DNA of 64,000 nt from Weizmannia acidilactici (GTDB lineage: Bacteria > Bacillota > Bacilli > Bacillales > Bacillaceae_C): NCBI RefSeq assembly GCF_008974185.1, contig NZ_BKZP01000001.1:1-64000 (forward strand), given 5' to 3'. Under the pieces are notes generated by a model. It ran no database searches. It worked only from the letters and a program-made list of their open reading frames with translations, and had not been told where the DNA came from. Positions 7,195 to 25,214 of this stretch are shown here, piece after piece; positions within the stretch are counted from its first letter, which is position 1; the number at the start of each line of letters is the position of its first letter. Position numbers and translations under genes: made by a program.

Positions 7195-7440
7195 TGAAAA
7201 AACGATGACAGGGCAGTAGGGTTACGCCAACTTTCAAAGCGAACCGGGGACAGTGGGAGCCCGGCAAAGAACGTAACTTGAATATCCCCCTTGAGTTCTT
7301 GCCTTGAACGCCGAAATGGCCAGTAGATAAAAGCGCCCCATCCACGTTACGGATGTCGAGCGGGCATCGTCTTATGCCTACTAGGGTGGTACCGCGGGAA
7401 ACCTTCTCGTCCCTATTTTTGGGGATGGGAAGGTTTTTTT
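7195..7440 (+). ncRNA. T-box leader, isoleucine specifier
   Basis: The leader contains the invariant T-box AGGGTGGTACCGCG (7383-7396), whose GGT pairs with the tRNA acceptor end. The specifier-loop context GAATATC (ATC = Ile at 7284-7286) agrees with the downstream ileS. AGCGAACCGGGGACAGTGGGAGCCCGG-like stem I elements are visible near 7236-7265. The leader ends in a strong terminator (AACCTTCTCGTCCC paired with GGGGATGGGAAGGTT, T-run at 7434-7440). Uncharged tRNA-Ile would stabilise the antiterminator and allow ileS expression. Confidence 0.95.
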
Positions 7441-7511: not shown

Positions 7512-10280
7512 ATGGATTATAAAGACACACTATTAATGCCAAAAACAGACTTCCCGATGCGCGGAAATTTGCCGAAAAAAGAACCGGAAATCCAGGCAAG
7601 GTGGGAAGAAATGAACATCTATGAAAAAGTGATGAAACGTACGGAAGGCAGGCCGCTGTTTGTCCTTCATGACGGGCCTCCGTACGCAAACGGCGATCTC
7701 CATATGGGCCATGCGTTAAACAAAACATTAAAAGACATCATCAACCGCTATAAATCAATGTCCGGCTACCATGCGCCGTATGTGCCGGGCTGGGATACGC
7801 ACGGGCTGCCGATCGAGCAGGAGCTGACGAAAAAAGGCGTGAACCGGAAAGCCATGTCGGTTGCCGAATTCAGGAAGCTCTGTGAAGAATATGCCTATGA
7901 ACAGATTGACCGCCAAAGAAAAGCGTTTAAACGCCTTGGCGTGCGCGGCGATTGGGAACATCCCTATTTGACGCTGCGTCCGGCATATGAAGCCGAGCAG
8001 ATTAAAGTATTCGGCGAGATGGCGAAAAAAGGCTATATTTACAAAGGCCTAAAGCCGGTTTACTGGTCCCCTTCGAGCGAATCGGCGCTTGCGGAAGCGG
8101 AGATCGAATATAAGGACATCAAATCGCCTTCCATTTATGTTGCTTTCGACGTGAAAGACGGAAAAGGCGTCCTGGACACAGATACGAAAATCGTCATCTG
8201 GACAACGACCCCGTGGACGATTCCGGCAAACCTTGGGATTGCCGTGAATCCGGATATCAACTATGTCGTTGCAAAAGTAAACGGGCAAAAATACCTTGTT
8301 GCCGAAGCCTTACTGGAAGAAGTCAGCGGGGTGCTGGAATGGGAAAATGCGGAAGTGGTTCAAACCGTTCCGGGAAAAAATTTGGAATATATTGTGGCAA
8401 AACATCCGCTTTACGGCCGCGACTCGCTTGTCATGCTCGGCGACCACGTTACCACCGACAGTGGTACCGGCTGCGTCCACACCGCCCCCGGACATGGGGA
8501 AGACGACTTCATCGTTGGCAAAAAATACGGGCTTGATGTGCTTTGCCCGGTTGATGACAAAGGTATGATGACAGAAGAGGCACCGGGATTTGAAGGCTTG
8601 TTTTACGACAAAGCGAATAAACCGATTTGCGAAGCATTGGAAAAAGCGGGTGCGCTGTTGAAACTGAAATTTTTGACGCACTCGTATCCACATGACTGGC
8701 GGACGAAAAAACCGGTCATTTTCCGGGCGACATCGCAATGGTTTGCCTCTATTGACATGTTCCGCGATGATATTTTGGAAGCCATCAAAGATGTAAAATG
8801 GACGCCGGTTTGGGGCGAAATCCGCATGCATAATATGATCCGAGACCGCGGCGACTGGTGTATTTCCCGGCAGCGTGCGTGGGGCGTGCCGATTCCGGTA
8901 TTTTACGCGGAAAACGGCGAAGCGATCATCACGGAAGAAACCATCCAGCACGTATCCGATCTGTTCCGCCAGTACGGATCCAATGTCTGGTTCGAACGGG
9001 AGGCGAAAGACCTGCTTCCGGAAGGATTCACGCATCCGGGCAGCCCAAACGGCATTTTTACAAAAGAAACGGATATTATGGATGTTTGGTTCGACTCCGG
9101 ATCTTCGCATCAAGGCGTTTTGGCTTCTCAGGAAGGTTTAAAACGCCCGGCTGATTTGTATCTTGAAGGTTCAGATCAATACCGCGGCTGGTTTAACTCT
9201 TCCCTGATTACCGGTGTTGCTGTAACAGGGCGCGCTCCGTACGACGGTGTTTTAAGCCACGGCTTTGTACTTGACGGGGAAGGCCGCAAAATGAGTAAGT
9301 CGCTCGGCAACGTCATTTCCCCGGGAAAAGTGGTCGACCAGCTTGGGGCAGACATTATCCGCCTGTGGGTCGCATCAGTTGACTATCAGGCTGATGTCCG
9401 CATCTCCAATGATATTTTGAAACAAGTGTCAGAAGTTTACCGGAAAATCCGCAATACGTTCCGTTTCATGCTCGGGAACCTGAACGATTTTGATCCGGCA
9501 AAAAATAAGGTTGCTTACGAAGACCTGCGCGAAGTCGACCAATTTATGCTTGTGAAATTGAACAAACTCGTAAAAGAAGTGCGCGATGCTTATGAACATT
9601 ACGAGTATGCAACCATTTACCATGCCGTCAACAATTTCTGCGCAGTCGACCTCAGCTCGTTCTATATGGATTTTGCAAAAGACGTGCTGTACATTGAACT
9701 GGCGGATAATCCGGAACGCCGTGCAATGCAAACCGTTTTGTACGAATGTCTCATTGCATTGACAAAATTGCTTTCACCGATTTTGCCGCATACAGCTGAT
9801 GAAGTTTGGCAGTATATCCCGGGCGTCACGGAAGAAAGCGTGCAGCTCACCGATATGCCTGAATATGTCGATTATCCGAATGCTGCAGAACTGGAAGAAA
9901 AATGGAATGCCTTCATGGCGCTGCGGGATGATGTCCTGAAAGCATTGGAAGAAGCACGGAATGCAAAAGTGATCGGGAAATCGCTGACCGCAAAAGTAAC
10001 TTTGTATGTCAATGATGAAACAAAAGCGTTGCTGGACAGCATTTCGGAAAGCAAAAAACAATTGTTCATCATCTCCGGGTTTGAAGTGGCGGGTTCGCTT
10101 GATGAAGCGCCGGAAAATGCTTTAAAATTGGAACATGCCGCGATTATTGTGGAAAAAGCGGAAGGCGAAACGTGCGAACGCTGCTGGGTTGTTACACCTG
10201 ATGTCGGCCATGACCATGATCATCCAACCCTTTGCCCGCGCTGCGCATCTGTCGTGAAAACGTTGAATGCGCAAGTGTGA
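7512..10280 (+). CDS. ileS: Isoleucyl-tRNA synthetase
   Basis: 922 aa, a class I synthetase charging tRNA-Ile. The HIGH motif is [11 protein letters not shown] (57-67) and the KMSKS loop is at 593-597. An editing (CP1) domain lies between them, and a C-terminal zinc site shows CERCW...CPRC (~886-905). Length and the zinc finger fit the ordinary bacterial form found in bacilli. It follows the isoleucine T-box and an AGGAGG site at 7500-7505. Confidence 0.98.
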
Positions 10281-12208: not shown

Positions 12209-12237
12209 TTGACAAACCGCCGAAAAAAGTTTAAGGT
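12209..12237 (+). promoter_or_regulatory. Sigma-A promoter of the pyr operon
   Basis: TTGACA (12209-12214), a 17-bp spacer and TAAGGT (12232-12237, four of six consensus bases) lie directly upstream of the first PyrR attenuator. Confidence 0.7.
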
Positions 12238-12251
12238 AAAAATAACTTCAT

Positions 12252-12902
<651 letters not shown>

Positions 12903-12985
12903 TCCTTTTAAAACATGTCCCGTGAGGTGTGCAAAGGATGGTTTTAGGGCCCTCTTTGCACCCTCGCGGCAAAGAGGGCTTTTTT
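12903..12985 (+). promoter_or_regulatory. PyrR attenuator 2 (after pyrR)
   Basis: Binding loop TGTCCCGTGAGGTG (12916-12929) keeps the core TCCNGNGAGG but has U and G at the outer positions in place of the consensus A and U. It is closed by ATCCTTT and AAAGGAT. The terminator pairs GCCCTCTTTGC (12949-12959) with GCAAAGAGGGC (12969-12979), with six Ts. In B. subtilis the attenuator at this place precedes pyrP. Confidence 0.88.
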
Positions 12986-13032
12986 GGGAATCGCTGAAAT
13001 CGCGTGGCCTAGATATGAAAAGTCAATACGGA

Positions 13033-13143
13033 ACACCTTTTAATCACAAGTCCAGAGAGGCTTGAAAGGGTGCCGGCGTAGCATGGCATTCGCCTTGCTG
13101 TGCCTGTTCTCGCGCACCCTGCTTGATTGCAGGGTGTTTTTTT
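13033..13143 (+). promoter_or_regulatory. PyrR attenuator 3 (before pyrB)
   Basis: Binding loop AGTCCAGAGAGGCT (13049-13062) is an exact consensus match, closed by CACCTTTT and AAAGGGTG. The terminator pairs CACCCTGC (13115-13122) with GCAGGGTG (13129-13136), with seven Ts. Only ~50 bp separate it from attenuator 2; no gene lies between. Confidence 0.92.
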
Positions 13144-13221
13144 ACGGAACTGCAGGATGGCGATGAAGCTGGAGAAACACGAGCACAGGCTGCCGCTTGA
13201 AAAAATAAGGAGGATGTTAAC

Positions 13222-14115
13222 ATGCAGCATTTCCTGACGATGTCCGATTTGAGGAATGATGAAATTCTTGAGCTGCTGGAAGAAGCGGATGCTTTTTCAA
13301 AAGGGGCGCAATGGAAAACACCGGAACCGGTTTTTGCAGTAAATCTGTTTTATGAACCGAGCACGCGGACAAAATGCAGTTTCGAAGTGGCGGAGCGACG
13401 GCTCGGTTTGGAACTGCTCCCGTTTGAAGTCGGGGCATCCAGCGTGCTGAAGGGCGAAACTTTGTACGATACGGTGAAAACTTTGCAGTCGATCGGCGTC
13501 AGGGTCGTTGTCATCCGCCATCAGGAAGATGAATATTACAAAAAACTGGCCGGGAACGTGGAACTTTCGATTGTAAACGCGGGCGATGGCAGCGGCCAGC
13601 ATCCGTCCCAGTGCCTGCTGGACCTTTTAACGATCCAACAAGAATTTGGCACGTTCCGCGGCTTAAACGTTTGCATCATCGGGGACCTCGTGCACAGCCG
13701 TGTGGCCAGGTCGAACGCGTGCGCCCTGCAAAAGCTCGGCGCAACCGTAAAGTGCTCGGGGCCTGTCGAATGGTATGATCCGACAATGAACATTGATTAT
13801 ATATCCGTGGACCAGGGCGTCAGGGAAGCGGATGTGGTGATGCTTCTTCGGATCCAGCATGAGCGCCATAAAGAAACCGCGCATCTTTCCAAAGAAGAAT
13901 ACCACCACGAATACGGGCTGACAGTGGAAAGGGAGCGGATGATGAAGCCGAATAGCATCATTATGCATCCGGCGCCGGTCAACCGCGATGTTGAAATCGC
14001 AAGCTGCCTCGTGGAATGCGGCCGCTCGCGGATTTTTAAACAGATGGAAAACGGGGTTTTTGTCCGGATGGCAATTTTAAAAGCAATTTTACAAAAAGAA
14101 AAGGTGGTTTGCTGA
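13222..14115 (+). CDS. pyrB: Aspartate carbamoyltransferase catalytic chain
   Basis: 297 aa; condenses carbamoyl phosphate with aspartate, the committed step of UMP synthesis. The carbamoyl-phosphate motif [13 protein letters not shown] lies near residues 40-52, and [12 protein letters not shown] near 250 is the aspartate-side signature. No regulatory chain (pyrI) follows, as in other bacilli. It begins after an AAGGAGG site and abuts pyrC with no gap. Confidence 0.97.
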
Positions 14116-19686: not shown

Positions 19687-22072
<2,386 letters not shown>

Positions 22073-22073
<1 letters not shown>

Positions 22074-22696
22074 TGGAAAATTATATCGCCGGACAATTAC
22101 TGGATATTGAAGCCGTTTTTTTAAAACCGAACGAGCCTTTTACATGGTCATCGGGCATCAAGTCGCCGGTTTACTGCGACAACCGTATTACTTTGTCGTA
22201 CCCGAATTTGCGGAAAGAAATTGCGATCGGGCTGAAAAAGCTGATTGAAGCGCATTTTCCGGAAGCAGAAGTCATCGCCGGAACCGCAACAGCCGGCATC
22301 GCACACGCCGCGTTTGTAAGCGATCTGATGAACCTGCCGATGGTTTACGTGCGTTCGAGCGCGAAAAAGCATGGGAAAGGCAATCAAATCGAAGGACGGG
22401 TCGCACCCGGCCAGAAAGTTGTCGTTGTGGAAGATTTAATATCAACCGGCGGAAGTGTGCTTACAGTTGTCCGTGCTTTGCGTGATGCCGGCTGCGAAGT
22501 GCTTGGCGTTGTCACGATCTTTACATACGAACTGCCGGCCGGGGCGGAGAATTTTACACGGGAAGGCATTACGGCTTATTCCTTATCGAATTATACCACG
22601 CTGCTTGAGGTAGGCGTGGAAAAAGGCCTGATCCGGGAAGAAGACTTGGCAACGCTGCAGGAATGGAGGCAGGATTCGGAGAATTGGGGGAAATGA
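22073..22696 (+). CDS. pyrE: Orotate phosphoribosyltransferase
   Basis: 207 aa; makes OMP from orotate and PRPP. The PRPP-binding motif [13 protein letters not shown] is near residue 120 and the catalytic loop [13 protein letters not shown] near 90. The ATG at 22073 shares a base with the pyrF stop and has GGGGGAAAG before it. It is the last gene of the pyr operon. Confidence 0.97.
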
Positions 22697-23068: not shown

Positions 23069-23970
23069 TTATTTGTAGTAGGACCACCTACCGCTACATG
23101 CTTTATTAAAATTTTTCTCCAGTATTCTATTTAACCTCTTCTTCGAATCCACGATTTTACACCAATCATAGATTCCCTTCGTTGTAATTTTTCGATCAGG
23201 AAACAGCATTTGAAATTCCCTGATACTCCATATGAACGCCGCTTCAACGGTTTCGCGGTGCCCGCAGTTTTCACAAACGATGCTCCTTCCCTGAACAGCA
23301 CAAGAAAACGAACCGCACGATGCGCAAATAATCCCTTTCCGTAACTGCTCATATTCATACCGGGGCAGCTGCATAAAAGGCGATTCTTCAATATGAAGCG
23401 ACAGAAGTTTTTCCGCCAGTCTCTTATGTTTGCCGTTCAGCTTTGCAGGCAATGAATTCAAATGTTTAAAATACCGGTTGATTTGAGTCGGGAAAATAAG
23501 TGGCGTATTCAGAGGGGCATGATAAAGAGTGAATTCGGGGTGAATAAAAATAACGGAAGCAGCGACAGGCATGTCAAATCCGAGCGAATGGAGCAGCTGC
23601 CGGAAAAGCGATTCGCAACGCCTCAATTGAATAAGCGGGTTGCTGATCTCGGACTTATTTCATAAATTCTTTCCCCTTCGTAGTAAAAATCGCCTTCATA
23701 ATTTTTCACTTCAAACACGTAAATGGTTTCCCCGGTAATCACAAGCGTATCTATCTGGAATGTCGTATTGTTCAAGTAGAGACGCAAATCATTCAATACT
23801 AAGCAATCGCATTCAAGTTTCTCTGTCAGCAAGTCCAAGTGACGCTCCCCTTCGTATCCTTTTTCGAGATTCCAATAGTACTGCTTGTCTTTTTCAGTGA
23901 GATCCATTCGTCTGTTTAACGATTTAAAAATAAACAGCTCAAGAGATTTTGTACGATCTTTATAAAGCAT
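23069..23970 (-). pseudogene. NERD-domain (nuclease-related) protein, frameshifted
   Basis: Two adjacent minus-strand frames are pieces of one protein. The first (23970 to ~23655, ATG after GGGAGGAAG) has the NERD signature QIDTLVITGETIYVFEVKNYEGDF. It runs off frame at ~23645-23656. In the neighbouring frame the sequence resumes as SEISNPLIQLRRCESLFRQLL and continues to 23069. The C-terminal part holds a four-Cys zinc ribbon (CASCG...CENCG). One lost base would explain the break. NERD proteins are widespread, poorly characterised predicted nucleases. A sequencing error cannot be excluded. Confidence 0.8.
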
Positions 23971-24086: not shown

Positions 24087-25214
24087 ATGAACAAATTTCG
24101 CATCGAGTATACCACAGGGTCTGTGCCATTCTGTTCGGGTTTGGCGGTGGTGGGGTTTCTCCTCCAGCAAACGAACCTTGCTTCAAGGCTTGACAATGCC
24201 ATATCGGAAAATATTAAACGAAACCTTGGATATTCGAACGGGGATGTGGCCAAGTCTTATATCGGGCTGCTTTGCCTTGGAAAGAAGGATTTTGGCGCAA
24301 TTGAAGCTTTCCGCAATGACACGTTTTTCCGCTCTTCTTTCAATCTCGAAAGGGTGCCTTCCAGCGCGGTTTTGGAGCACCGGTTGGACGAGGCTGCCTT
24401 ATCGGATGAATGGAACGGCATTTTAATGGAAGAGTCTCTGGAACTGATTCACCAAACCAATGCGCCGGTCAGCCCGGTGTTCATAAAAGATCAAGCGTAT
24501 GTATCAGTTGAGATTGAAGGTCCATTTGCTTTCATCGGTCAGGAAGGGTACTGCATCCAATTTGAAACGGCTACGGAACTGCAATTCATTCAAAAAACCG
24601 TCCAGTCTGCGCAAAAATTGGCAGCCGGCCCTTTTCTTTGGCGGCTTGATACCGGGGAGGACAGCACTGAAATTGTATCGGTATTGCTTGAACATGAAAT
24701 GGATTTTATTTTGAGACAAACTCCGCAAAATACGGATGCATGGATTGAAAACGCCCTGAAACACGGCATGTGCTGCATTGAACGCGAAGGGGAGAATGTA
24801 TATTTTGGATTTGTGCCTGAAAACGTTACTGTAAACGGTCAGGGAAGAACCGTCCGTAAAGTTTTTAAAATGATTGAAAGGACCATTGATCAAAACGGGC
24901 AAATCTTTTTGATGCCGCAATATGAGATGGAATTGTACTGGACAACGCTGGGTATCCCGGCAGCAGCCGTTTTGCAGCTTTACAACGAACATCAGAAAGT
25001 TTGTAATCAAATCAATCGTGAATTCAAGTCTGATCTTCATTTTAAACAGTTGCCATCCAAACATGACAAAACAAACGAACTCGTCCTGCATTTTGGCATG
25101 TTCGCCTATAACCTGCTTCGCGTCATCGGCCAGGGGAACAAGCGAATGAAACGGATCCGGGATGTGATACGGGAATTGCCGAAACGATCGATCCTGGAAG
25201 AGAATGAGAACTGA
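24087..25214 (+). CDS. IS1380-type transposase-derived ORF lacking the first catalytic segment
   Basis: 375 aa, intact frame, start ATG with GGTGATG before it and TATAAT at 24053-24058. Order and wording resemble IS1380-family transposases as I remember them: an N-terminal SGLAVVGFLLQQ...LASRLD, NGDVAKSYIGLLCLGKKDFGAIEAFR, PSSAVLEHRLDEA, then GQEGYC, LDTGEDS (second catalytic Asp) and a C-terminal LVLHFGMFAYNLLR. The stretch that should carry the first catalytic Asp is reduced to VSVEIEGPFAFIGQEG, roughly 30-40 residues short, so the protein should be unable to transpose. No terminal inverted repeats are evident. It may be a decayed or a repurposed transposase; family assignment is from memory. 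Confidence 0.6.
   Translation: MNKFRIEYTTGSVPFCSGLAVVGFLLQQTNLASRLDNAISENIKRNLGYSNGDVAKSYIGLLCLGKKDFGAIEAFRNDTFFRSSFNLERVPSSAVLEHRLDEAALSDEWNGILMEESLELIHQTNAPVSPVFIKDQAYVSVEIEGPFAFIGQEGYCIQFETATELQFIQKTVQSAQKLAAGPFLWRLDTGEDSTEIVSVLLEHEMDFILRQTPQNTDAWIENALKHGMCCIEREGENVYFGFVPENVTVNGQGRTVRKVFKMIERTIDQNGQIFLMPQYEMELYWTTLGIPAAAVLQLYNEHQKVCNQINREFKSDLHFKQLPSKHDKTNELVLHFGMFAYNLLRVIGQGNKRMKRIRDVIRELPKRSILEENEN

Follow-up and report, generated by a model that had tools for sequence, protein, structure and literature searches.

Two adjacent PyrR attenuators before pyrB in Weizmannia acidilactici as probable remnants of a displaced uracil permease gene

Introduction

For the pyr operon of Bacillus subtilis, PMC7430163 describes three attenuation regions, before pyrR, pyrP and pyrB, all served by one promoter. 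A stretch of 64,000 nucleotides from Weizmannia acidilactici (contig NZ_BKZP01000001.1, positions 1 to 64,000; here called the window) also carries a pyr operon, but two PyrR attenuators stand there in direct succession between pyrR and pyrB, and the gene for the uracil permease, pyrP, is absent. How such a pair arose, and whether it represents an improved switch or what remained after a gene had gone, is the question addressed here. The window belongs to the same genus as H. acidiproducens and H. ginsengihumi. No paper on PyrR attenuators that stand next to each other with no intervening gene was recognised in the literature, in a search that left subscription papers mostly outside and is no proof of novelty.

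The pyr operon and its three attenuators

The operon of the window runs in the order pyrR (12363-12902), pyrB (13222-14115), further pyr and car genes, and a closing phosphoribosyltransferase gene (22058-22696) that is probably pyrE; operon genes lying outside the profile scans were named by reading their translations. The intact pyrR (+ strand) encodes 179 amino acids and matches NCBIfam NF003549 (269 bits against a cut-off of 138), and the 297-residue product of pyrB (+ strand), the first gene 3' of the doublet, contains the Pfam domains OTCace_N and OTCace. A possible but weak promoter of the operon, TTGACA and TAAGGT separated by 17 nt (12210..12238, + strand), was read by eye. The consensus promoter scan gave no match at this position, where the second hexamer agrees at only three of six bases.

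Elsewhere in the window, a T-box leader (7196-7417, + strand; 101 bits) lies 5' of a long ORF at 7512 that reads like ileS. Shortly 3' of the pyr operon there is a transposase-like ORF (24087-25214, + strand; Pfam DDE_Tnp_1_4, 30.4 bits, below the cut-off). A NERD-domain ORF (23623-23970, - strand) shares four bases with an ORF lacking any Pfam match (23069-23626, - strand), and the whole of 23069-23970 (- strand) is possibly a single gene split by a frameshift.

Sequence analysis of the pyr region revealed three matches on the + strand to RF00515 (PyrR binding site, Rfam), namely the pyrR leader (12252..12346; 49.4 bits), attenuator A (12900..12987; 50.8 bits, E value 8.4e-6) and attenuator B (13032..13144; 60.6 bits, E value 1.2e-7), the E values referring to the 1,081 bases searched. 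Of the three, B alone exceeds 54 bits, the Rfam gathering score; A misses it by 3.2 bits, and the leader, for which folds were also computed, is likewise below it. Attenuator A starts at the stop codon of pyrR and is separated from B by a spacer of 44 bases (12988..13031, + strand) which, by its sequence and ORFs, contains no gene and takes the place of the absent pyrP. The loop cores of A and B are 133 bases apart. The arrangement described in the earlier note on this DNA, i.e., three attenuators in series before pyrB of which two are consecutive with nothing between them, is therefore present.

Chance hairpins were ruled out as the source of A and B by the Rfam matches and by the conserved placement of the loop 3' of pyrR. 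A PyrR loop starts no more than 34 bases from the end of pyrR in 95 of the 108 pyrR-pyrB loci compared (counted as rows; 90 distinct sequences), which makes chance unlikely for A. The consensus scan found no internal promoter between A and B by which A might be bypassed; it found none before pyrR either, so that the absence between A and B proves little.

The consensus of the PyrR loop is given in PMC7430163 as ARUCCAGAGAGGYU. It was scored here as ARUCCNGNGAGGYU, with 12 fixed positions and two loop positions of the published consensus relaxed. The predicted PyrR-binding loop of A (12902..12941, + strand) retains 10 of the 12 positions (model R1, 42.7 bits, this loop being in the R1 training set), and its outer A-U pair is changed to U-G. 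With the loop held open, the antiterminator core of A (12929..12961, + strand) is formed by pairing of GTGCAAAG (12929-12936) with CTTTGCAC (12954-12961). The terminator (12949..12985, + strand), an 11-bp stem followed by six T at 12980-12985, was partly recovered in the terminator scan. The predicted loop of B (13035..13074, + strand) agrees with the consensus at all 12 positions (model R1, 41.2 bits, this loop too being in the training set), and the terminator of B (13114..13144, + strand), a 9-bp stem with a T run at 13138-13144, was found by the terminator scan. Computed energies of the PyrR loop, antiterminator and terminator are -11.7, -16.1 and -21.9 kcal/mol in A and -13.4, -30.0 and -17.2 kcal/mol in B. 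According to the alternative folds, the antiterminator and the terminator exclude each other at each site, and a T run comes after the terminator stem. Attenuator A thus looks able to switch, because all three folds can form, although its affinity for PyrR is uncertain because its loop keeps only 10 of the 12 consensus positions. In the window, these models show A as unbroken and with a strong predicted terminator.

Former presence of pyrP between the two sites

In all, 108 pyrR-pyrB loci were compared, one from the window, 27 on stretches from its family and 80 named ones; identical sequences in 18 pairs leave 90 distinct. The pyrP gene stands between pyrR and pyrB in 60 rows (58 distinct), in which, at the threshold used, both sites were detected in 48, the first only in three, the second only in five, and none in four. 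It is absent with one PyrR site in 38 rows (23 distinct) and absent with two sites in 10 (9 distinct). Deletion of pyrP from the order A-pyrP-B predicts a site of the pyrR-pyrP type (A-type) followed by one of the pyrP-pyrB type (B-type), whereas a duplication predicts two sites of one type. Profiles for the two types were trained on pyrP-bearing loci only (after thinning, 39 sites for A and 48 for B). They assign attenuator A of the window to the ancestral pyrR-pyrP type (29.5 versus 15.0 bits) and attenuator B to the ancestral pyrP-pyrB type (50.5 versus 20.6 bits).

The same succession of an A-type and a B-type site was obtained for G003, G004 (H. ginsengihumi), G005 and Pseudalkalibacillus caeni. 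The first site is tied in G002 (22.6 versus 22.3 bits) and has no clear type in REN10, SAS-127 and FJAT-42315 (Bacillus-like), and the second is B-type in all four. Lone sites in rows without pyrP are A-type in 36 of 38, the remaining two rows representing one genome, H. acidiproducens, with a B-type site. Since A is of the pyrR-pyrP type and B of the pyrP-pyrB type, it is well supported by these sequence comparisons that an operonic pyrP formerly lay between them and has been lost. The earlier note had held that both attenuators outlived a deletion of pyrP, and had suggested a comparison of this junction in related species. The site-type profiles agree with that view, as do members of the family such as H. 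sporothermodurans and H. camelliae, in which pyrP is still located between the two sites. As a candidate pyrP remnant, the string GAATACGGAACACC at the end of the spacer in G002 and G003 was considered because it is similar to GAATAAGGAATCACC where the pyrP of H. camelliae stops; this likeness was noticed by eye and is too short to count.

Location of the uracil permease gene

The genome of the window (123 contigs) contains two further PyrR sites outside the pyr operon, on contigs C17 and C20. The former precedes a solo gene encoding a uracil permease of 426 amino acids, which thus has a PyrR attenuator of its own and shares about 50% identity with the operonic type (50-53% by tblastn in the family genomes). 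Using the C17 permease as the tblastn query, 34 genomes of the family were searched. Each of the 28 genomes that lack operonic pyrP has a solo permease with 74-100% identity to that of C17, and none of the six with operonic pyrP does; for six of the 34 (G028-G033), the absence of operonic pyrP rests on tblastn at E 1e-100 and not on the pyrR-pyrB layout. By hand comparison, an Rfam PyrR site lies just upstream of the solo gene in all 28. An additional permease of about 50% identity is encoded elsewhere in G015 and G020. Outside the family, a solo-type permease (63-69% identity) is present in all four tandem genomes, and an Rfam PyrR site near it in none of the four, so that regulation did not follow the permease there.

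The presence of a solo permease in genomes without operonic pyrP indicates that the operonic gene was displaced and not simply lost, and in the family of the window the replacing gene is predicted from its upstream sequence to be controlled by PyrR. The description of pyrP as gone is accordingly right for the operonic copy and wrong for uracil permease in the genome as a whole: the search of the remaining contigs proposed in the earlier note yielded a distinct permease on C17, and the uptake gene is not missing.

The PyrR site on contig C20 is a strong one (63.5 bits) and precedes genes for a cytosine-permease-like protein and a cytosine deaminase (L013:2986-5859), which is predicted to extend the PyrR regulon to cytosine salvage in this genome.

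Distribution of tandem sites and a second class at MFS transporter genes

A FastTree tree of PyrR and PyrB (51 rows chosen from the 108; two genes only) shows tandem pyrR-pyrB loci in four separated places, with pyrP-bearing loci between them. The first is the genus of the window, whose five species, one of them single-site, have a support of 1.0. G005 joins the H. sporothermodurans group and P. caeni joins Evansella, each with a support of 0.81, and the REN10 group (1.0) makes the fourth place; some of the four are separated with only moderate support. A strict pattern for two successive PyrR loops, by which tandems in the order were counted, matched 13 of 397 genomes and none in the reversed control. 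Of the 13, two lie at pyrB in genomes of the window's genus and 11 belong to a class associated with genes for transporters of the MFS type. The pattern misses the window, because the T run is too far from the second loop, and also misses G002, the REN10 group and P. caeni; G005, which is absent from the 397, would be caught. As known tandems are missed, 13 is a lower bound. The Rfam scan of 120 genomes gave the best matches only.

In four PyrR-site pairs (G004 contig C1, G018, G024, and G026, which is H. camelliae) the gene that follows is not pyrB but encodes an MFS transporter of about 400-410 amino acids; the family closest to it is that of aromatic acid/H+ symport, with a match under the NCBIfam cut-off. 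The gene is absent from the genome of the window, where the best matches have 28-30% identity. Before an MFS gene of Bacillus methanolicus, a PyrR site with a SAM element is tabulated in PMC4342826. In each of the 20 MFS loci examined here (19 distinct), which were mostly chosen for looking tandem, two PyrR loops follow one another ahead of the start codon; for L073 and L210 the first of them, lying outside the stretch scanned, is known from other scans. Among loci fetched for a single Rfam site and containing this gene (L061, L071, L193, L201 and L210), a second loop was found in five of five.

Two forms can be distinguished. In the first, comprising six loci (L078:2050-2260, + strand; L068, L061, L193, L111 and L112), the second loop lies 27-32 bases before the ATG and overlaps the Shine-Dalgarno (SD) sequence, which is contained within its 3' strand. 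In the second (L071, L073, L100, L101, L102/L076, L105-L110, L201 and L210), the second loop precedes a sequestor/antisequestor pair, in which GAATGGA next to the loop and an SD such as GAAGGGTGGA are alternative potential partners for a stretch like TCCATTCCTTC. In nine loci of this form that were tested, the sequestor beats at least 280 of 300 shuffles in five and the antisequestor in seven; four of the nine gave no clear sequestor signal, and the SD of L100 and L210 was probably cut in part by the fixed window of the test. Full folds of eleven MFS-leader sequences do not all show both states. These models suggest that PyrR may control translation on top of attenuation at the MFS genes, which are therefore candidates for dual control, and the class looks more novel than the pyrB doublet. 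Fields and Switzer reportedly found translational repression by PyrR in Mycobacterium smegmatis.

Discussion

From the sites, their types, the alternative folds, the solo permease and the distribution, we infer PyrR binding, readthrough, redundancy and an order of events as follows. A and B are probably the two attenuators that flanked pyrP in an ancestor and were made adjacent by displacement of the permease; the pair would be functional in part, one member being a largely redundant remnant. The ancestral arrangement would have been pyrR-A-pyrP-B-pyrB. Uptake would have passed to another uracil permease, encoded by a solo gene elsewhere that in the family of the window has its own PyrR attenuator, and deletion of the operonic pyrP would then have brought A and B together. 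By analogy with B. subtilis, PyrR with bound UMP would stabilise each loop and block the antiterminator of that site, allowing the terminator to form, and when UMP is scarce the antiterminators would form and transcription would continue into pyrB. The number of terminators before pyrB stays at the ancestral three, and the redundant member would tend to drift; in the window this would be A, which has kept its folds but has a loop off the PyrR consensus.

The state of the sites in the tandem loci bears on this proposal. The loop of A departs from the consensus (10-11 of 12 positions) in the window, G002, G003 and G005, and in H. acidiproducens it is lost, a terminator-like remnant of A being visible by eye in front of the remaining site. 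No terminator was found by the scan for three of the nine tandem A sites, all three in Bacillus-like genomes. The consensus positions kept by loops A and B are 12 and 9 of 12 in P. caeni and 12 and 10 of 12 in G004. The median for tandem A loops is 11 of 12 against 12 for A loops beside pyrP (rank test, p 2.8e-7), and that for tandem B loops is 10 against 12 (p 0.064), the rows being non-independent in both comparisons and compensated pair changes being counted as departures. The antiterminators of tandem A sites are no weaker than canonical ones (median -18.4 versus -14.3), and neither are their terminators where found (6 of 9). The fit of the tandem A loops and the missing terminators are in line with redundancy. 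At the same time, the sequences indicate that drift is not confined to A, since B loops depart as well, which is opposed to a simple story of decay of A. Departure from the consensus or loss of parts in one member, seen in several lineages, speaks against the doublet being strongly selected, if not in every lineage. In the pyrR-pyrB intergenic regions of L178, L180 and L182, the scan found no terminator with the first PyrR loop, i.e., there is a loop lacking the switch.

A wider reading, in which serial PyrR sites are a recurrent and selected design in the Bacillaceae that provides gates in the pyr operon and dual control by one protein at the MFS genes, is tentative, and we hold it to be doubtful. 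If it were true, the two transcription attenuators of the pyr operon would act as consecutive gates once uptake had been split off, the second MFS loop would control the ribosome-binding site either directly, with the SD in its 3' strand, or via the sequestor and antisequestor, and PyrR would govern a single mRNA at the levels of transcription and of translation.

For the pyrB doublet itself, a selected two-stage gate would multiply termination and give the biosynthetic genes a steeper response to UMP, with uptake controlled separately. All three folds are possible at both sites in the window, G004 and G005, the tandem occurs in four separated places of the tree after loss of pyrP, and, as noted, the tandem A terminators that were found are not weakened. 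Three attenuators before pyrB are, however, already a feature of the B. subtilis order; A is degraded in H. acidiproducens and the three Bacillus-like genomes and the loop of B in P. caeni; and the Lederbergia/Siminovitchia group, also without pyrP, manages with one site at this place. We therefore consider such a gate unlikely. The sharper repression expected in the earlier note is subject to the same comparison. Because the three regions of B. subtilis are under one promoter, a transcript reaching pyrB passes three of them there too, and nothing is gained over that species; sharper control than by a single attenuator can be claimed only relative to those relatives that have one site at this place. 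The doublet could nevertheless be useful, given that both sites were kept in four places of the tree. On balance, we favour redundancy of one member over a selected double gate, and the pair resembles a leftover of evolution more than it does an improved switch.

Two other origins would dispense with the displacement of a gene from between A and B. According to the first, pyrP was never at this locus, A and B both being ancestral before pyrB, and other lineages acquired the gene by insertion between the two sites. In the window's genus all five genomes are without pyrP at this place, but loci without pyrP are scattered on the tree among pyrP-bearing ones of many genera, so that the insertion would need repeating, and the present tree does not place all of them at its base; this origin is very improbable. 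Tandem duplication of one attenuator after loss of pyrP, with which the adjacency and common RNA family of A and B would agree, is rejected for the window and is hardly credible, since the two sites differ in type, each matching a different ancestral position, and in their terminators, although the typing is tied for the first site of G002 and unclear in the three REN10-like genomes.

The novelty of the locus lies in the fact that A has no gene of its own. If displacement of the permease is the correct explanation, the pair constitutes a natural experiment on the fate of serial regulatory terminators after a gene has been displaced from between two of them. This outcome is seen in four separated places of the tree, where either member may be intact, weakened or broken, so that additivity and redundancy of serial attenuators become testable against each other. 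Within the family of the window, the displacement (28 of 28 genomes versus none of six) is accompanied by a PyrR site predicted at the permease gene that took over.

Comparison with known systems

The pyr operon of the window resembles that of B. subtilis in its RF00515 sites, in the layout of anti-antiterminator, antiterminator and terminator, in having the same genes, and in the three sites before pyrB. It differs in that no pyrP is located between the second and third attenuators, where there are only the 44 bases without a gene, and in that its permease is encoded by a solo gene with its own PyrR site on another contig. The Lederbergia and Siminovitchia operons likewise lack pyrP, and a solo permease predicted to be under PyrR is encoded elsewhere in the family genomes searched; in contrast to the window, only a single A-type site remains between pyrR and pyrB. 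Glycine riboswitch pairs (PMC3766115) and the tandem T-box of trpE (PMC4342826) are likewise cases in which a gene is preceded by two similar elements in series. The doublet of the window shares this serial arrangement before one gene. Unlike these systems, however, it would have arisen by loss of a gene from between two separate elements, and cooperation between the elements is no part of the explanation proposed here.
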